From NCBI RefSeq assembly GCF_003325355.1, contig NZ_CP030850.1:6275001-6339000 (forward strand): a stretch of DNA of 64,000 nucleotides, read 5' to 3'. Of the stretch, positions 11,991-21,377 are shown piece after piece. The notes under the pieces are model-generated. The model saw only the letters and a program-made list of their open reading frames with translations, did no database searches and had not been told where the DNA came from. Source of the stretch: Runella rosea (GTDB lineage Bacteria > Bacteroidota > Bacteroidia > Cytophagales > Spirosomataceae). The number at the start of each line of letters is the position of its first letter. The first letter of the stretch is position 1. A program made the position numbers and the translations under genes.

Positions 11991-12313
11991 TTGTCAAAAT
12001 GACGTTTTTGCACATTTTGGTTAGTGAACAGGACTTTAAATAGTTGTACTTTTTCTATTTTTGTTGTACTATTTAAAGAACTTTTCGTTTTTGTAAAAAA
12101 AATAATTGGACGGAACACAGCAAGGTTTGAATTTTCTGGTTGTATTATTTTAAGATTTGTACTATTTTGAGAAAAGGTTTAAATAGGGTATATGAATTTA
12201 ACAAGAGGGGGTTTTTGCCCTATTTTTTTGTAATTTAAAACCTCACACCTTTGCATTGTCAAAACGAAGTCATCACAGCTGGTGAGACAAGATGGTACAA
12301 AAACAATAAAACA
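11991..12313 (+). promoter_or_regulatory. AT-rich gap with an inverted repeat and leader of the secreted-protein gene
   Basis: No gene seen. An inverted repeat with arms CTTTAAATAGT (12034-12044) and ACTATTTAAAG (12068-12078) encloses two GTTGTAC motifs (12043-12049 and 12063-12069). It could be the terminator of the DinB gene or a regulatory dyad. TTTG (12250-12253) within CACACCTTTGC is a weak match to the Bacteroidota -7 element, giving a leader of about 55 bases before the next start. Confidence 0.4.
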
Positions 12314-12916
12314 ATGAAAAAGAACACAATGCTTCTGTCAATATTTGCCGCCATGTTTTTTGTAAGCACAGGAAACGCAATGGCCGAGAGTCACCTTTTC
12401 ACAAAAGACGTGAAAATCGTAAAACGCGACGCTAAGAAAGTAGAAGTTCGCGTCAACCAACCTAACGTTGGAATTTTGGATGTAGAGTTAAGAGACAAAG
12501 AAGGAGTACTTATATACGAGGGCGAGATCAAAGGTGGCGAAAACGTAGCGACTCAGTTTAACCTGAACGCTTTGCCAAGCGGTGAGTATACCTTGAATTG
12601 CTTCAACAACAATTTCTGGTCTTCTCAGCAACTTTCGATCTCAAACGGTAACATTGAAATCAACGAAAACAGCTACAAAGAGTCGTTGGCTCCTAAAGTT
12701 GAAATGATTGCAATCAACCGTTTTGAAGTATCGACCGTGGTGAAGAACGTAGCCGACATGGAAGTAATCATTGCTGACCGTGCGGGCGAAGTTGTTTACA
12801 AAGGTTATTTATCTACCGCATCACGTTTCAATTTGGGACATTTGCCAAGCGGCGAGTACTCTTTTGAATTTGTAGTAGCCGATAAATCTTTCAAGCAATT
12901 CGTTAATGTGAAATAA
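12314..12916 (+). CDS. secreted protein with two DUF3244-like repeats, function unknown
   Basis: A 200-residue exported protein (signal MKKNTMLLSIFAAMFFVSTG). The mature part appears to hold two similar beta-rich halves, each ending in an LPSGEY motif: LNALPSGEYTLNCF and LGHLPSGEYSFEF. This resembles the Por-secretion-tail or DUF3244 fold of Bacteroidota, in which LPxGxY is a hallmark. There is no catalytic motif. The ATG at 12314 starts the signal peptide. A strong terminator follows, so it is separated from the RiPP cluster. It may be a surface or periplasmic adhesin-like protein; that is a guess. Confidence 0.7.
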   Translation: MKKNTMLLSIFAAMFFVSTGNAMAESHLFTKDVKIVKRDAKKVEVRVNQPNVGILDVELRDKEGVLIYEGEIKGGENVATQFNLNALPSGEYTLNCFNNNFWSSQQLSISNGNIEINENSYKESLAPKVEMIAINRFEVSTVVKNVADMEVIIADRAGEVVYKGYLSTASRFNLGHLPSGEYSFEFVVADKSFKQFVNVK

Positions 12917-13169: not shown

Positions 13170-13307
13170 ATGAAAAACCGCAAAACCTTAAACACAAAAA
13201 AGAGGTACCAATCTCCTAAGTTGAAAAAATTAGGCAACGTCAAAAATTTAACTGCAGCCGCTGGCAGTGGCGATGCCGATGGAATGACAGGTTTATCAGT
13301 TTGCTGA
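13170..13307 (+). CDS. RiPP precursor peptide with a lasso-type leader
   Basis: A 45-residue peptide. The N-terminus is Lys/Arg-rich (MKNRKTLNTKKR). Residues 13-28 fit the lasso leader signature Y-x2-P-x-L-x3-G-x4-LT (Y13, P16, L18, G22, L27, T28), the part bound by RiPP recognition elements. The core begins after LT and reads AAAGSGDADGMTGLSVC, with a single cysteine as last residue. If T28 is the penultimate leader residue, as in lasso peptides, D37 is core residue 8, a normal position for the acid that closes a lasso ring. The stop overlaps the next start (TGATG), so it is translationally coupled to the YcaO gene. Precursor identity is inferred from motif and context. Confidence 0.82.
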   Translation: MKNRKTLNTKKRYQSPKLKKLGNVKNLTAAAGSGDADGMTGLSVC

Positions 13308-15304
13308 TGATGAAATGGAATTCCTCTTTTTATTTATTGGGATTCAACAACAAGTCCTTTGTACTGTATGATGGTCATACCCAAAAGACATACAGCAATT
13401 CTGTACAGTACCGTATTTTATGTGACTTTTTCGGTAGTGAAGAAGTCACCCTCGACGGGTTAAGAAAAGCCTATCAAAATACGTACTCACTGCCCGAAAT
13501 ACTGGGCGCTTTTTATGGGTTTGTGCAAGATAAAATTATCATTGACAATGCTTTTTTAACGATTGCCATCGAATTTCCCGAAGACACATCTCTCAGAGAG
13601 AAAAGGGCAAAGCTTGAATTAACAAGGGTTCAGATGACCGCTGATCAGCCTGCATTGACGGTTTTTGTCGTTTCGGATGTACATCATTTACAAAGTGTTG
13701 AATTTGCAAAAATCAAGAGCAAACAGTTTACTGTTGTTTGGGCTTTTGCCAATGAATTGAAACTGTTTCCCGTTTTTGATACTTCAGAAACGGGGGCTTT
13801 TTTCTGTTTTCTTCATAGAATCAAAAGAGTCTTTTTCAGTCAATTGCTGACTTTGCGCCACCATCCTCTTTCGCTGAACGATTGTTTGTCTACGGCTTCA
13901 TTGTTGATGGTTTTGGATTACCTGCCCACCTTTATTGATTCCAATGAATCCCAAAATACCCTTTTGATTTTCGACCACGAAAGATTGACCATCGAACGCG
14001 CCTATCTATCCCCTCCGCTCTTTCGCTCATTTGCCAAAGGAACGTACGAAATACTTGATGCTCACCAAAAGCCGGCTAATATTCAGGCTGTTTTTGAGCA
14101 ACTTTCGTTTCACCTTGAAGCTCCATTGGGGTTGGTTGATAAGCTCACATCGCAACAAACACCCCTGGGAGGGTGGGTAAGTACTGGAGGGGTGATCTTC
14201 AGGTCTAATCAAATAAATGCTGAAATATTCTTTTCAAGAACAACGGCAAGTGGCAACGGCTTGACCAAAGACGAGGCCGAGGCCAAAGCTTTTTGTGAGA
14301 CGTTGGAAAGGTACGCACAGGTTTTTCGTGAACATGAAGATGAGTATATCATTGCTGCCTACAACGACTTGAAGCACAGGGCCATTCACCCCAACGAGAT
14401 ACTTCTTTACAGCCCGACGCAATACCGCCAAGAAAACGCCCGCAGTCATTCGGACGAATTATTAGTGGAATTTGATGAAAATACGCCGATTGCGTGGAGT
14501 AATGTAACGGACAGCGTCGATGACACGCCCCGATGCATACCTACTTTCCTGCTGTATCAGGGACGGCCCACTGAAGATGCCGCCTCCGAAACGTTTTTTA
14601 AATGGATCACAAACGGTACTGCGGCAGGTTCTACCCTTGATATGGCAAAGCTTTATGCGCTCTATGAACTGATTGAAAGAGATGCGTACGCAATATGGTG
14701 GTACAATCGATTGCCGTCCCAGGGCATTGATCTTGCGTATATTGACCATTTGGAGATAGTGAGTTTGGCCCTTGCGGAGCACCGGCGATTGGGCAAAAAA
14801 ATATACGTATTTGACATTACCCAAGACATTTCCATCCCGACGGTCGCCGTAGTGTCAGCCTATCTCGACGGCACCTACGTATTAGCCTGCGCTTCAAACA
14901 TCAGTTTTGAGAAAGCCTGCGAAAAGGCTTTTGGCGAACTCAATCAGCTATATGTTCGTCATTTGTCGAAAAAGACCCGTTTAGACGACGGTCAAATGCA
15001 GGACATAGCCACTGCATTGAATCATCATACCCCGCAAAAACCCGTTTGGTCTTTTGAAAAAAATGACTTAGCTCTTACCGAAGATCTAAAAATCGTTGAA
15101 ACGGAAATAAGAAAAAGAGGACTGAATATATACTATAGAGACCTCTCCCGAAGCGATGTTTTATTGCCCGTGGTGAAGGCGATTGTGCCCGGCATGAGGG
15201 ATTTGGATACCCGCTTTGCGCCCGGCAGATTGTATGATGTGGTCAGTGATCTCTACGGCTACGTTCCTGCCGAAGAATCTCTCCGGACTTTTAATCTGCT
15301 CTGA
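13307..15304 (+). CDS. YcaO-domain RiPP maturase with an extended N-terminal domain
   Basis: A 665-residue protein. The C-terminal half (about residues 300-650) is a YcaO domain, which uses ATP to activate peptide backbone amides for azoline, amidine or thioamide formation. Two ATP/Mg-binding helices are visible: ETLERYA at 331-337 and ELIERDAYAIWWY from 454, after NGTAAGSTLDMAKLYAL; FGELNQLYV and VKAIVPGM follow. The N-terminal ~300 residues are not clearly recognised; the first ~80 look like a winged-helix leader-binding element (inference), as in fused cyclodehydratase C-D proteins. The PxPxP tail of many azoline-forming YcaOs is absent. The ATG at 13307 overlaps the precursor stop; an ATG at 13310 is equally possible. 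The cyclase ATG follows its stop directly. Confidence 0.88.
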   Translation: MMKWNSSFYLLGFNNKSFVLYDGHTQKTYSNSVQYRILCDFFGSEEVTLDGLRKAYQNTYSLPEILGAFYGFVQDKIIIDNAFLTIAIEFPEDTSLREKRAKLELTRVQMTADQPALTVFVVSDVHHLQSVEFAKIKSKQFTVVWAFANELKLFPVFDTSETGAFFCFLHRIKRVFFSQLLTLRHHPLSLNDCLSTASLLMVLDYLPTFIDSNESQNTLLIFDHERLTIERAYLSPPLFRSFAKGTYEILDAHQKPANIQAVFEQLSFHLEAPLGLVDKLTSQQTPLGGWVSTGGVIFRSNQINAEIFFSRTTASGNGLTKDEAEAKAFCETLERYAQVFREHEDEYIIAAYNDLKHRAIHPNEILLYSPTQYRQENARSHSDELLVEFDENTPIAWSNVTDSVDDTPRCIPTFLLYQGRPTEDAASETFFKWITNGTAAGSTLDMAKLYALYELIERDAYAIWWYNRLPSQGIDLAYIDHLEIVSLALAEHRRLGKKIYVFDITQDISIPTVAVVSAYLDGTYVLACASNISFEKACEKAFGELNQLYVRHLSKKTRLDDGQMQDIATALNHHTPQKPVWSFEKNDLALTEDLKIVETEIRKRGLNIYYRDLSRSDVLLPVVKAIVPGMRDLDTRFAPGRLYDVVSDLYGYVPAEESLRTFNLL

Positions 15305-17176
15305 ATGAAAGGCATCATTGGCATCGTTGGAGGCATCAAGTCCAATGAATTGGAACGCATGAGCCGCTGTTTGTCTCATCGCGGGCAAGCTACCCTCAAA
15401 ACCAACGATGTCTTCAGTATAGGGCAGCTCAGTACTTGCTGGGGAGCTACCCTTTTTTATCAGGATGGCATTTCGGTCATCTCAGATGCCCGGATTGATA
15501 ATCAAGCCGAAATCTTAGAAAAAATCGGGCTTGCAGCGACCCTGAAAATGAGCGAAAATGAACTGATTTTCAGGGCCTACTCTAAATTAAGTATCAACTT
15601 TGTCGACTGTTTGGCGGGAGATTATTCCATTTTCATTGTGGATGAAATTCGGCAAAAAGTTTTCCTCATCAGAGACCATTTAGGGGTACGTCCGCTTTAT
15701 TACAGCTTCCGGAAGGGAGAGTTTATGGCTTTTGCCTCAGAACCCAAAGCCCTGCTTTTGCTCGATGATGTTTCTTCAGAGCCCAATGAAGAAAAGCTCG
15801 AAGAATATCTTCAATGGCCCACCGACCACAGGATTTATCCTAAAACGACTTTTTTTAAGGATATTTTCGCGGTACTTCCCGCTACTGTTTTAGAGATAGA
15901 CATGGATTTGCATCAATCCAAAGAAACCTTCTATTGGAAAATAGATCCTGAACAGTTCAGTCATTTAAACACCGAATCTTTGCTCATTGAAGAATACCGC
16001 AAAAGGTTTGAAAGGGCGGTAAGCAGGCGATTACAATCGCTCACGGGTGTTCAGGTAAGCGGAGGGCTCGACTCAAGCTCGGTGTATAAAGTGGCCGAAA
16101 GATATTTACCTACAGAAAACTTGTTCTCTGTGCATTTTTATCCCAAAGTTGAAGAAGCCGATGAGAGAGAATATACCCTGGAAGTCGTCCAAAACAACCT
16201 CCCAAATCATCATCAGATAGAACGAAGTGTTGTTTCCAGGGTAAGCATTGAGCAGGTTCAAATGCATATTGACCGACCGGATTTGAGTACCATACCAATG
16301 TGTGCCAAAATCCTTCCGGAGCTGATAGAATTTAAAAGAAAGGGAGTGGCGACCATTCTGACGGGGCATGAAGGCGATACCGTGGTGGATACGGGCTTAT
16401 TTTATCTTTTTTCGCTTATTTTTAACTTAAAATTCAAAGCGTTTGAGGAGACCATCGGAGGTGACCGTAAAACCACACGCGTCAGAAGGGTGTATCTTGT
16501 CAAACGAGCTTTTCATAAAAAATACGCGGAAGGCGGACTTTCAGCGGTAGTGCAATTGCTTGTTGCGGTTGTGCATCATCAAACCGTTTCATTCGTTGAT
16601 TTAATGCGGATAATGACCTCTTTCGGTCTTGGCGTAATAAAAAAAATGATTTTTAGAAAGAAAACGAAGGCCCCGGCGCAGTTGACAAACTATGTCCCGG
16701 AAACGCTTACGGGCGATATGCGGGAGCATTTCAGCCGTATTTGCTGTGCCGGAATCATTGATGCCAACGAAATACTTAATCTGGCCGGAGCGGCTTTTGG
16801 GATTGAATATGCGCATCCTTTTCTCGACAAAGATTTCATAGAGTTGAGTCTGATGGTGCCCGGTAGAATGAGAATAAGCCCTCAAGCAATGACGAGGTAT
16901 CATTTCCGACAGGCAATGACGGGGATTTTGCCAGAAAAAGTCAGGCTGAGGCAATCGAAGGTACTTTTTGCTAAACCCATTTGGCTCATCCTTGCGGACA
17001 TGACCAACGCGTGTATGGAGGAAAACGACTTAGACGCTGTCACAAAAGAAAAATTGGCCCTGATAAAAAAAGGCCTCCAAAATATGAATCATCAAAATTT
17101 TGATTTTGACAAAATCAGGAAATTTCAACGACAGCTATTTCTTCAAATGTGGAAAAATCAATTGCAATCTCATTGA
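15305..17176 (+). CDS. asparagine-synthetase-like macrolactam synthetase (lasso cyclase type)
   Basis: A 623-residue AsnB-family protein. The N-terminal Ntn-hydrolase-like domain (residues 1-200) keeps SHRGQ at 24-28 but begins M-K-G instead of M-C-G, so the catalytic cysteine for glutamine hydrolysis is missing, as in lasso cyclases of the McjC type. The synthetase domain has the pyrophosphate loop SGGLDSS at 252-258 and TGHEGD at 353-358, so adenylation of a carboxylate remains possible. The predicted role is ATP-driven amide formation in the precursor, for example joining an Asp side chain to the core N-terminus. It starts immediately after the YcaO stop codon. An amino-donor-free AsnB acting on another substrate cannot be excluded. 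Confidence 0.85.
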   Translation: MKGIIGIVGGIKSNELERMSRCLSHRGQATLKTNDVFSIGQLSTCWGATLFYQDGISVISDARIDNQAEILEKIGLAATLKMSENELIFRAYSKLSINFVDCLAGDYSIFIVDEIRQKVFLIRDHLGVRPLYYSFRKGEFMAFASEPKALLLLDDVSSEPNEEKLEEYLQWPTDHRIYPKTTFFKDIFAVLPATVLEIDMDLHQSKETFYWKIDPEQFSHLNTESLLIEEYRKRFERAVSRRLQSLTGVQVSGGLDSSSVYKVAERYLPTENLFSVHFYPKVEEADEREYTLEVVQNNLPNHHQIERSVVSRVSIEQVQMHIDRPDLSTIPMCAKILPELIEFKRKGVATILTGHEGDTVVDTGLFYLFSLIFNLKFKAFEETIGGDRKTTRVRRVYLVKRAFHKKYAEGGLSAVVQLLVAVVHHQTVSFVDLMRIMTSFGLGVIKKMIFRKKTKAPAQLTNYVPETLTGDMREHFSRICCAGIIDANEILNLAGAAFGIEYAHPFLDKDFIELSLMVPGRMRISPQAMTRYHFRQAMTGILPEKVRLRQSKVLFAKPIWLILADMTNACMEENDLDAVTKEKLALIKKGLQNMNHQNFDFDKIRKFQRQLFLQMWKNQLQSH

Positions 17177-17202: not shown

Positions 17203-17633
17203 AGCCATTGTTGGTGTTATCACCGCCCGGGCGGCCCCGCAACAACCCACTTCTCACTCTTTATGAGGCGATTTTACACAAAAGCCTAACATCAAAAAAG
17301 TTCTATATTTTCAAATAGATATGCCATAACGTTTGATAGCGTAATATTTTAGATAGATTTAAGTTGTTGGTGATAACACCAACAACGGCATCAAACAACG
17401 TCCCTCTTACTCTTTATCAGGATCATGCAAGTACTACAAAAGTCTAACGTCTAAAAACGGTATATTTTCGGTAGTTTTAAGTTGTTGGTGATAACACCAA
17501 CAATGGCGTCAACCCGCCTTTCACTCTTTGTCAAGCAAGGTATTACAGGAGTTTAACAACTAAAAGTTTTATATACCGATAGTTTTTACCAACTTTAGTC
17601 AAATAGATATGGCGTATAAGTAGGTTTTTAAAA
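17203..17633. repeat. array of palindromic repeat units downstream of the RiPP cluster
   Basis: Noncoding. Three units start with a palindrome of arms GTTGTTGGTG and CACCAACAAC (or near-copies) around ATAA/TTAT: 17204-17246 (inverted, interrupted), 17363-17386 and 17481-17504. Each is followed by shared blocks such as CTCTTTRT, AAAGTCTAAC-like and TCAAATAGATATG. Forward copies are followed by GGC(A/G)TCAA. The unit at 17203-17386 is repeated as a ~170-base copy at 18141-18308. The first palindrome is interrupted by a GC-rich 16-base insert (17225-17240). The array ends at the start of the small membrane protein gene. Confidence 0.85.
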
Positions 17634-17924
17634 ATGAAAAGAACAAAAATTGGTTTCTGGACGATTGGAATGGTTTTTCTATGCCTTCCAATACTTTGGT
17701 ACTTTTTCTATAAGTTCTATTATGCTTATATTTATTATAATAAATGGATAGCCTTATATTGTCTATTATTTTTTGCTCCTTGTTTATTCATGTATATATA
17801 TATTAATAAAGCACTTAATGGAAATAAAAAAGAAAGCCAATATATATTTACTACAGGAATAGTCTTAGGTATAGGTTGGATAGTATATCTAATTATAATG
17901 TGGTTAACTGGTGAATTTGTGTAG
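17634..17924 (+). CDS. small AT-rich membrane protein, unknown
   Basis: A 96-residue protein with three predicted membrane helices (about 8-28, 40-60 and 72-92) and a short charged loop NKALNGNKKESQ between the second and third. No family recognised. Its base composition and codon use (many ATA, TAT and TTA codons) are far more AT-rich than the neighbouring housekeeping genes, which suggests acquisition. It directly follows a palindromic repeat array and is followed by another, so it looks like a repeat-flanked cassette. Whether it belongs to the RiPP cluster, for example in export or self-protection, is unknown. Confidence 0.6.
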   Translation: MKRTKIGFWTIGMVFLCLPILWYFFYKFYYAYIYYNKWIALYCLLFFAPCLFMYIYINKALNGNKKESQYIFTTGIVLGIGWIVYLIIMWLTGEFV

Positions 17925-18140
17925 GTTTTTATTTGAATTTTAATGTAAATTTATTTTTAGTAATACTTCTTGTTAGGCGTAGTCTTCTAAGAGTTTAAAT
18001 CATTGTTTGTTGTTGCTATTTGGAAGACTACGGACTGAAAATAAATAAAATGTCTGTAAAAAACAAAATGGCTATACGTTAAATTAAAATAATGGTAAAA
18101 TGGAACTTTACAATCGTACCCGTGAATACTATAAGATATT
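17925..18140. repeat. gap with a separate inverted repeat
   Basis: No gene. An inverted repeat with arms CGTAGTCTTC (17978-17987) and GAAGACTACG (18023-18032) encloses a 35-base AT-rich loop. It may be the terminator of the small membrane protein gene or a mobile hairpin repeat. Confidence 0.55.
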
Positions 18141-18485
18141 TAGCCGTTGTTGGTGTTATCACCAACAACCCACTTATCACTCTTTGTGAAGCGATTTTCT
18201 ACAAAAGTCTAACATCAAAAAAAAATGTAAGTTTCAAATAGATATGTCATAACGTCTAACAGCGTATATTTTAGATAGATTTAAGTTGTTGGTGATAACA
18301 CCAACAACGGCATCAATTTTTATCCGTTGTTGGTGTTATCACCAATAACCTTTATCTTGCTCTTTATCAAGCAAAAGTCTAAGAAAGAATGTGTATTTCT
18401 GGTGGTTTTTACTGGCATCTTTCAAATAGATATGGCACAAAAGTTGTTGGTGATAACACCAACAATGGCATCAAAATATTTTATA
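18141..18485. repeat. second array of palindromic repeat units, upstream of the Imm26-like gene
   Basis: Palindromes at 18146-18169, 18285-18308, 18326-18349 and 18443-18466, alternating in the orientation of the loop and flank (loops TTAT, ATAA, TTAT, ATAA). The stretch 18141-18308 is a close copy of 17203-17386, including the inner blocks AAAAGTCTAACATCAAAAAA, TCAAATAGATATG and TTTTAGATAGATTTAA. The last palindrome ends 20 bases before the ATG of the Imm26-like gene. Confidence 0.85.
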
Positions 18486-19568: not shown

Positions 19569-21377
19569 CTAAACACCATCGACCAATTCAAATTGTAACT
19601 TAATCAGGCCCGCATACAGGCCGTTTTCGTTCATGGCCAGTTCTTCGTGGGTGCCAGACTCAAAAATGGTGCCTTCCTTGATGACATAAATGCAATCGAC
19701 ATTGCGGACGGTTGCCAGTCGGTGAGCGATGATGATGGTGGTGCGATTCTGCATCAAACGGTCGAGGGCATCTTGTACCAATTTTTCCGATTCGGCATCC
19801 AACGAACTAGTGGCTTCGTCGAGAATCAAGATTTTGGGGTCTTTCAAAATGGCCCGCGCAATGGCAATCCGCTGACGCTGACCGCCTGAAAGTTTGATGC
19901 CGCGTTCGCCCACGACCGTTTCCAATTGGTCGGGAAAAGATTCAATAAAATCGAGGGCGTTGGCTTTGCGGGCGGCTTCCCGAATCTCTTCGTGGGTAGC
20001 GTTGGGCTTTCCGTAAGCGATGTTTTCGCGGATGGTGCCGCCAAACAAAATGACTTCCTGGGGCACCACGGCGATGTTTTGGCGGTAAGCCGTAATATCA
20101 AAGGTCTGAATATCCTGTCCGTCTACCGAGATTTTGCCGCCCAACGGGGTATGATAACGCATCAAAAGTTGCACAATGGTTGATTTTCCAGCGCCGCTAT
20201 AACCCACCAAAGCTATTTTCTGACCGGCAGGTACGTGGAGCGAAACGCCTTTCAATACCTGCATATCGGGTCGGGTAGGGTAGGCAAATTGGACATTATC
20301 AAAAGCGATATTGCCGTTTACCGTAATCGGTTGTACTTGTTGGTGTACATCCACTTCTGATTTTTCGTCCAAAATTTCCAGCAACCGCTCCGAAGCCCCC
20401 AAGGTTTTCTGAATCTGGGCGTACATATCGCCCAAACCGCCAATAGAACCCCCGATAAACATGGTGTAGAAGATGAAGGTCATCAATTCAGAAAAGGGCA
20501 TTTCGCCGCTTTGCACCAGCGTAGCACCGTACCATACCACCCCGACGATGCCGCCAAAAAGCGCAAAAATGATGAATGAAACGAATCCGCCGCGAAAACG
20601 GGCCGCTTTTAACGAGGCCGTAATAACGCGAGAAAGCGCGTCGCCATAGCGGTTGATTTCGAGAAATTCATTCGTAAAAGCCTTCACGATTGTTACGGAT
20701 TGGAGCGTTTCTTCCACCACGACGTTGGCGTTGGCCAGTTCGTCTTGGGCTTTCTTGGAGAGTTTGCGGATGTAGCGCCCAAAAATCATGGCGACTACGA
20801 TAGCCACAGGAAACGTAGCCAACATAAAAATGGTCAGTTTCCACGAAATAAAGCAGATAATCACGATACCAACCACCACCGTGGCCAAAGAACGAAACAA
20901 TTCGGCCAACGTAAATGACAGCACATCTTGCAACGCCTGCACATCGGACGTGATGCGGCTCATGAGTTCGCCCACGCGGCGTTGTTCAAAAAAAGGAATG
21001 GGCAACGACACGATTTTGCCGTATAAAGTACGCCGAATATCTGCCATGCCTTTCTCGCTCACGATGGAGAAAAAGTAAATACGCCCAAACGAAAAGAGCG
21101 ATTGTAGCACCAGAATACCAATCAGAAAAAGAACCACCTGATTGAGTTCATAGGAGGATTTTCCTTCAATCACCGCCACGATTTCGCCAATCAATTTGGG
21201 GAAAATAAGGTTGGTCGTCAGTGAGAGAAGTAGGAAAAGGATTCCTACTAGAAACGTATTTTTATAGGGTAAAATAAACCGAAATATCTTGAGGGCTTTC
21301 GACAGACCTTCTTTATTGAGTTTGCGTTTTTTATCTTCGGGCGACAATTCTACGCCCGTTCCTCTTCCTTTTGCCAT
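19569..21377 (-). CDS. ABC exporter, fused permease and ATPase (MsbA/MDR type)
   Basis: A 602-residue half-transporter. Residues 30-330 form a six-helix type-1 exporter membrane domain. The ATPase domain follows, with Walker A GYSGAGKST at 392-400, Q-loop near VVPQEVILFGG, signature LSGGQRQRIAIARA, Walker B ILILDEATSSLD and switch histidine in IIIAHRLATV. It would act as a homodimer in the inner membrane, exporting lipids, drugs or peptides. No peptidase C39 domain is present, so it is not a leader-cleaving peptide exporter, and it lies about 2.4 kb from the RiPP genes beyond a terminator on the other strand. Substrate unknown. Confidence 0.92.
   Translation of the reverse strand: MAKGRGTGVELSPEDKKRKLNKEGLSKALKIFRFILPYKNTFLVGILFLLLSLTTNLIFPKLIGEIVAVIEGKSSYELNQVVLFLIGILVLQSLFSFGRIYFFSIVSEKGMADIRRTLYGKIVSLPIPFFEQRRVGELMSRITSDVQALQDVLSFTLAELFRSLATVVVGIVIICFISWKLTIFMLATFPVAIVVAMIFGRYIRKLSKKAQDELANANVVVEETLQSVTIVKAFTNEFLEINRYGDALSRVITASLKAARFRGGFVSFIIFALFGGIVGVVWYGATLVQSGEMPFSELMTFIFYTMFIGGSIGGLGDMYAQIQKTLGASERLLEILDEKSEVDVHQQVQPITVNGNIAFDNVQFAYPTRPDMQVLKGVSLHVPAGQKIALVGYSGAGKSTIVQLLMRYHTPLGGKISVDGQDIQTFDITAYRQNIAVVPQEVILFGGTIRENIAYGKPNATHEEIREAARKANALDFIESFPDQLETVVGERGIKLSGGQRQRIAIARAILKDPKILILDEATSSLDAESEKLVQDALDRLMQNRTTIIIAHRLATVRNVDCIYVIKEGTIFESGTHEELAMNENGLYAGLIKLQFELVDGV

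Follow-up and report, generated by a model that had tools for sequence, protein, structure and literature searches.

The 64,000-nucleotide stretch of the Runella rosea genome analysed here (the window; C1:6275001-6339000 of a 7.16 Mb genome) holds three plus-strand genes arranged head to tail in one compact unit, for a short precursor peptide, a YcaO protein and an AsnB-like protein, a putative lasso cyclase. The precursor gene (13170-13307, +) encodes 45 residues, which the Tyr(-17)/Thr(-2) rule divides into a leader of residues 1-29 (13170-13256), YQSPKLKKLGNVKNLT, and a predicted core of residues 30-45 (13257-13304, +), AAGSGDADGMTGLSVC, at a cleavage site that we infer. In this core, Asp8 would be the ring acid, and the last codon (13302-13304) specifies Cys. 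The precursor stop TGA overlaps an ATG at 13307 (TGATG), and the YcaO start that is kept among relatives (M-K/V/R-W-N) is the in-frame ATG at 13310. The YcaO gene (13310-15304, +) encodes 664 residues with an RRE-fold N-terminus, an E1-like remnant and a YcaO domain. Its stop codon (15302-15304) is abutted, with no gap, by the ATG at 15305 of the AsnB-like gene (15305-17176, +; 623 residues, no Cys2). These coordinates agree with the first-pass annotation of the window, which had described a compact three-gene unit with a TGATG overlap and a direct junction between the YcaO stop and the AsnB start.

The leader reads Y-x2-P-x-L-x3-G-x4-LT, the lasso-type signature already pointed out in that annotation, and its motif residues are kept across genera. 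Published lasso leaders have Tyr(-17), Pro(-14), Leu(-12) and a penultimate Thr (PMC10368454, accessible text). With Tyr set as -17, the six precursors found at trio loci all carry Pro(-14), Leu(-12) and Thr(-2); as they were chosen by adjacency and by a Y/F-x2-P-x-L-type motif, Tyr and Pro are partly circular, while Thr was not required. In all six, Asp8 is the sole acid at core positions 7-9, with no adjustment needed, and core position 1 is A, G or S. The cores have 15-17 residues (16-17 in the five intact copies). Known lasso rings count 7, 8 or 9 residues and known cores 13-33 (PMC13352647, accessible text), so an Asp at position 8 predicts an 8-residue ring of standard lasso size. Against NCBIfam, the precursor of the window reached 24.1 bits where 33 are required and 18.2 where 19 are, and a Pfam search gave no match. 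The product of the trio is very probably a lasso-type macrolactam.

In Pfam, the AsnB-like protein matches Asn_synthase (104 bits) and GATase_7 (61 bits). Among NCBIfam models, that of the lasso cyclase (NF033535) fits it best, with 255 bits (E 1.4e-75), ahead of the asparagine synthase TIGR01536 (174 bits). Cys2 is absent from the five trio cyclases available (5/5), which start with M-K-G; in the window, position 2 is Lys. The missing Cys2 and the lasso cyclase as best model rule out an ordinary glutamine-dependent asparagine synthetase and bear out the earlier description of a lasso-cyclase-like synthetase without the catalytic Cys. Also, the trio cyclases hold motifs in common with other lasso cyclases. 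A tree of 87 cyclase-like proteins from the family (Spirosomataceae), built by a quick method and rooted for drawing only, unites the five full trio cyclases in a single clade (SH-aLRT 100), which clusters with the family lasso cyclases on a long stem of 1.4 changes per column. Judged by its sequence, the AsnB-like protein is a relative of lasso cyclases.

The YcaO sequence was matched in 15 of 200 genomes of the family. Six of these hold the same gene: the own genome, where the query has a single match, G050 and G134 (Runella), G011 (Arundinibacter), and G183 and G141 (Dyadobacter genus). The nine others hold other YcaOs (at most 53.2 bits). In 6/6 trio genomes, a lasso-like precursor lies directly upstream of the YcaO gene and an AsnB-like gene directly downstream, and the cores diverge (AAGSGDADGMTGLSVC in the window, GTSGSSGDGIATWDPC in G183, ASGSGDSDGSTQQFPVC in G011 and SNGSLDADGMGNWDPC in G141). 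This is the conserved trio with divergent core sequences to which the first-pass annotation had looked for support, its gene order unchanged in 6/200 family genomes. Identity to the window is 96% (G050), 58% (G183), 55% (G011) and 49% (G141) for the YcaO protein, and 92%, 56%, 52% and 48%, respectively, for the cyclase. The flanks of the trio are alike within Runella and different among the Runella, Dyadobacter and Arundinibacter loci. As the gene order recurs in further genomes with enzymes 48-58% identical outside Runella, the trio is beyond chance, and an azoline-forming ribosomally synthesized and post-translationally modified peptide (RiPP) system with a chance AsnB neighbour is ruled out by an order kept in three genera with different flanks. 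Between the window and G050, the ratio of nonsynonymous to synonymous substitution rates (dN/dS) is 0.12 for the YcaO gene and 0.18 for the cyclase gene. The trio of G134 (L018 5822-9076) is decayed: its YcaO gene is frameshifted, its cyclase gene is cut by a contig end with the remainder on another contig, and its precursor ends in Glu and has no Cys. G134 is a metagenome assembly, 83% complete, in which the YcaO frameshift is possibly an assembly fault; the change in the precursor is separate.

Beyond the family, at E 1e-60 and with at most three candidates scored per genome, the trio YcaO was found in 4/390 genomes of an order sample, all from the own family, and in 1/395 genomes of a phylum sample, namely the own genome. 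A scan of 84,980 species (one genome each), based on two peptide patterns that divergent forms may escape, gave 299 related stretches, and among the best 80 of them four were the same gene (Runella sp. CRIBMP, a Runella metagenome assembly, Arundinibacter roseus and Dyadobacter tibetensis). Distant matches were present in 63 plasmid records, none of which covered 80% of the query. No cyclase stood beside the other YcaOs at 76 distant YcaO loci (L040-L115; E 1e-5).

The YcaO assignment of the first-pass annotation was confirmed by a Pfam match of 239 bits. A profile of 30 proteins (5 from trios, 25 distant) compared with the PDB gave LynD (745.7 bits), TruD (720.1 bits) and MusD (701.8 bits), and an AlphaFold2 model (predicted local distance difference test, pLDDT, 81.4; residues 633-664 under 50) matched the same three structures, MusD at E 1e-30. 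Alignment and fold together place the RRE, E1-like and YcaO domains in one chain. The YcaO motif residues E330, E333, R334, E453, E456, R457 and D458, which we take to have an ATP role, are invariant in 30/30 aligned proteins. The RRE-fold domain (residues 1-82; 13310-13555, +) is a structure-based assignment to which sequence profiles give no support. Modelled alone (pLDDT 92.4), these residues form three strands and then three helices, an RRE-like arrangement. Foldseek ranked highest the lasso B1 protein TbiB1, solved with its leader peptide, and LynD (E 0.03-0.04, probability 1.00), and VIA-align scored one chain from the bacillamide BmdB/BmdC complex at Z 9.8, LynD at 9.1 and TbiB1 at 8.8. 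On alignment and model, the trio YcaO is a fused heterocyclase of the LynD/TruD kind, as a derived relative whose chemistry is a prediction. It shares with these cyanobactin enzymes (PDB 4v1t, 4v1u, 4v1v, 4bs9) an RRE fold, an E1-like middle and a YcaO domain in one chain, but it is shorter (664 residues vs 775-781), has neither the four Cys nor the Pro-containing end of its relatives, and comes with a lasso cyclase neighbour and a lasso-type leader.

Each of the five intact trio cores contains exactly one Cys, which is always the last residue. By comparison, a core Cys occurs in 0/43 (40 distinct) recognised lasso precursors of YcaO-less cyclase loci, which came from 42 of 82 such loci, a selection of those in the family (5/0 vs 0/40, Fisher p 8e-7, ignoring shared descent). 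Cys is the classic azoline substrate. Since the Cys tracks an intact YcaO gene and is absent from the frameshifted G134 copy, the simplest reading is that the YcaO protein acts on the C-terminal Cys, and we consider this likely; a thiazoline, rather than another change, is by a little the better guess for the product. The trio could also make a plain lasso peptide, with the YcaO protein as a leader-binding chaperone or inactive, and with the Cys serving otherwise, for example in a disulfide or a metal site. The likeness of its RRE fold to B1, a locus without B1 and the loss of parts of the thiazole/oxazole-modified microcin (TOMM) architecture would fit such a role. However, the invariance of the seven motif residues, the dN/dS of the YcaO gene and the lack of Cys in 43/43 recognised YcaO-less cores make it improbable.

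No match to the leader peptidase component B2 was obtained at the trio loci L017-L021, and neither of the two B2 genes of the own genome, at C1:1961479 and C1:5734052, lies inside the window. Thus, the absence of a McjB-type protease noted in the first-pass annotation stands for the locus and falls for the organism. Each of these two B2 genes is near a PqqD-like gene (by family match at L030, by alignment only at L029). At L030, the B2 neighbours are a lasso precursor, a cyclase and a PqqD-like B1, with kinase-like and transporter-like genes named by eye; at L029, an AsnB-like gene accompanies B2, and the region looks by eye like a glycosyltransferase cluster. B2 is present in 5/5 intact trio genomes, with two genes each in the own genome and G011 and one each in G050, G183 and G141. 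In G183, G141 and one G011 locus (L035, L033 and L031), B1 and B2 form a cassette with an HPrK-like gene (the label is a family match for G183) and a gene without family match, and no cyclase was found in the fetched stretch around it. In G183, the trio cyclase was the only cyclase match at E 1e-30 (six of ten candidates scored).

The same dispersion was observed across the 200 family genomes. B2 scored over its cut-off in 70/74 genomes with a lasso-type cyclase vs 29/126 without one (p 4e-25), yet no B2 lay within 15 kb at 70/101 lasso-type cyclase loci, and cyclase and B2 were never within 15 kb in 40 of the 70 genomes with both. The trio loci are among those counted, the split G134 cyclase enters twice, descent and contig ends are ignored, and at most six candidates were scored per genome. 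Many B2-less cyclase loci are bare precursor-cyclase pairs. Because cyclase and B2 co-occur by genome yet are mostly unlinked, the action of B1/B2 in trans would be usual in this family. A scattered lasso system of this kind seems to be the rule here, and the trio seems to be such a pair plus a YcaO gene; that B2 acts in trans is probable.

Alternatively, the YcaO protein could be a leader peptidase, alone or in addition to its other role, and the trio would then be self-sufficient without B1/B2. Lasso formation without leader and peptidase is reportedly claimed in the title of a paper on pseudomycoidin. MusD, a near structural match, is a YcaO with ATP-dependent backbone cleavage, and the locus has no B2. 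Nevertheless, we regard this explanation as very improbable: LynD and TruD outscore MusD, B2 is present in every intact trio genome, Thr(-2), which is read by B1/B2 in known systems, is kept in 6/6 precursors, and the C-terminal Cys would be left unexplained. Moreover, MusD takes off C-terminal residues and not a leader (PMC10885120, accessible text).

Side observations were made on the same genes. Lasso precursor-cyclase pairs without a nearby B2 are frequent in the family (L146-L163, L166-L225), and at these loci the Thr(-2) rule would give many cores that start with Lys and carry Asp7. In two Runella genomes (L029 8891-12210 and L032 9395-12696), B2, AsnB-like and PqqD-like genes lie in an apparent glycosyltransferase region with no recognisable precursor. 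At L031, L033, L035 and L164 (Arundinibacter and Dyadobacter genus), the genes on either side of the B1-B2-HPrK-like cassette look by eye like housekeeping genes, and a cyclase was not found in the fetched stretch.

We tentatively read the locus, with somewhat less than even confidence in the whole, as a split-locus lasso-type RiPP system with a YcaO-modified C-terminal Cys, most likely a thiazoline, and with B1/B2 in trans. The YcaO protein, through its RRE domain, would first bind the YxxPxL leader. The YcaO domain, with ATP, would then activate the amide ahead of the C-terminal Cys (Val-Cys or Pro-Cys), its presumed substrate, with a thiazoline as the most likely outcome. A B1/B2 pair from another locus would accept this precursor and remove the leader by a cut one residue past Thr(-2), and the cyclase would adenylate Asp8 and couple this residue to the freed N-terminus; the resulting 8-residue ring would presumably be threaded. 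For the window core, the calculated monoisotopic masses are 1410.5755 in linear form, 1392.5649 as a macrolactam and 1374.5544 as a macrolactam that also carries an azoline. It is conceivable, though doubtful, that the system is a natural lasso-azoline hybrid. Its leader would be read first by a heterocyclase-fused RRE, the enzyme capping the tail with a thiazoline made from the C-terminal Cys, and next by a B1/B2 module that is common to several dispersed precursor-cyclase cassettes in the same cell. If so, the trio would be a plug-in cassette of a modular, scattered lasso system.

Several results limit this split-locus reading or speak against it. The cyclase scores below the NF033535 cut-off (255 of 525 bits), which is also missed by the L030 cyclase of the own genome (480.5) and by an orphan family cyclase (213.6). 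The ring might be closed but unthreaded, or the AsnB-like enzyme might activate another carboxylate, so that the product would be no lasso; the long stem of the trio cyclases agrees with this explanation as well, but the leader, the ring position and the best-scoring family are all of lasso type, and we give it little credence. For the RRE fold, the Foldseek E-values were 0.03 or worse, none being below 0.001. Profile comparison of the YcaO N-terminus with lasso B1 gave no signal (probability 0.9%; 0.1% with shuffled controls at 0-0.2%), and a sequence-level match of the trio RRE to B1 was dropped for that reason. Comparison of related TOMM RREs with lasso B1 gave 41.9% (E 4e-5), and comparison of the trio with the TOMM RRE gave 0.9% (E 0.027).

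Furthermore, four Cys columns, which presumably form a zinc site, are filled in 25/25 relatives; no trio protein has the full set, and two have one column. No trio YcaO has a Pro in its last ten residues, whereas one or two Pro close the sequences of the relatives; none of the 30 aligned YcaOs, relatives included, ends in a strict PxPxP. Azoline chemistry is less sure because of these two differences. They would suit the same lasso peptide with another YcaO change at the last amide, be it an amidine, a thioamide or attack by an outside nucleophile. We hold this to be unlikely: the invariant last residue is the classic azoline substrate, among solved structures the heterocyclases LynD and TruD are the closest relatives, and no TfuA or radical SAM gene was noticed beside the trio when the gene lists were read by eye. 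Other YcaO-linked additions at peptide C-termini exist, and peptide-nucleobase hybrids are said to be the subject of a paper with that title.

The remaining counter-evidence comes from the comparison of genomes. The five intact copies share one cyclase clade and hence are not independent. The precursors of the window and G050 differ by five nonsynonymous changes and no synonymous one. On these few sites, purifying selection on the leader, whose absence the first-pass annotation had named as a refutation, does not show; four of the five differences fall in the first 30 codons, and the motif residues are kept across genera despite these Runella-level differences. Of the 82 YcaO-less cyclase loci, 40 had no recognisable precursor. 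Three further loosely matching open reading frames were dropped as chance; a late Cys occurs at L178 and L197, at L197 as the last residue. No B2 was found in G134, at its 83% completeness, and 29 genomes have a B2 without a detected cyclase, which weakens the argument from single genomes.

Compared with the lasso peptides described by NF033528 (leader) and NF033535 (cyclase), the trio is alike in leader spacing, Thr(-2), ring acid at position 8 and cyclase family. It differs by the YcaO gene between precursor and cyclase, by the C-terminal Cys in 5/5 intact copies, and by a locus at which no B1, B2 or exporter was found. A split lasso operon (cebulassopins, cited in the accessible text of PMC13381572 and PMC13352647) and a man-made lasso peptide with a second C-terminal RiPP change (accessible text of PMC12338566) are already known. 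Like split or scattered lasso systems, the family often has precursor and cyclase apart from B1/B2; the trio is unlike them, including the cebulassopins as far as their citation goes, by its added YcaO. The man-made example is fusilassin with a daptide-type C-terminus (PMC12338566, same text), in which, as proposed here, a second RiPP pathway changes the C-terminus and lasso enzymes close the ring, but it uses daptide enzymes and no YcaO. By the accessible description of ItfB (PMC10352776), which we liken to the trio enzyme by description and not by sequence, this YcaO also acts at the last residues of a Bacteroidetes precursor, but it makes an amidine and the last residue is Phe.

No natural YcaO-lasso hybrid was found in the searched parts of the open-licence PMC literature, which omits most subscription papers, including major lasso mining. 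In the accessible parts of two reviews, YcaO, thiazol- and heterocycl- are absent (PMC9266682), as are YcaO, thiazol- and azoline (PMC13352647, from 2026); that of PMC8498205 has a single mention of a thiazoline enzyme, in connection with man-made hybrids from other classes. A natural lasso-YcaO pairing, if true, would offer a ready-made route to lasso peptides whose C-termini are altered and a test of how two leader-binding modules share one leader. It would also point to lasso peptidases working for precursor-cyclase pairs that are not linked to them; mining by cluster could overlook or misassign such pairs.

Around the trio, an ABC-transporter-like gene (19569-21377) was considered as exporter and found unsupported; it is near the trio in L017, and the stretches fetched for L019-L021 did not show it. 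Upstream of the trio, positions 12311-12916 encode a 201-residue secreted-type protein with a DUF3244 match over cut-off and weak matches to sorting domains of the type IX secretion system; it is shared by L017 and L018, and none was noticed in L019-L021. Just downstream of the trio, at 17364-18465, the near-palindrome TTGTTGGTGATAACACCAACAA occurs in six copies, five exact and one with one mismatch, surrounded by longer imperfect repeats. The rest of the whole genome holds one further copy (up to one mismatch), and a degenerate form is present in two copies downstream of the trio in L017 of G050.

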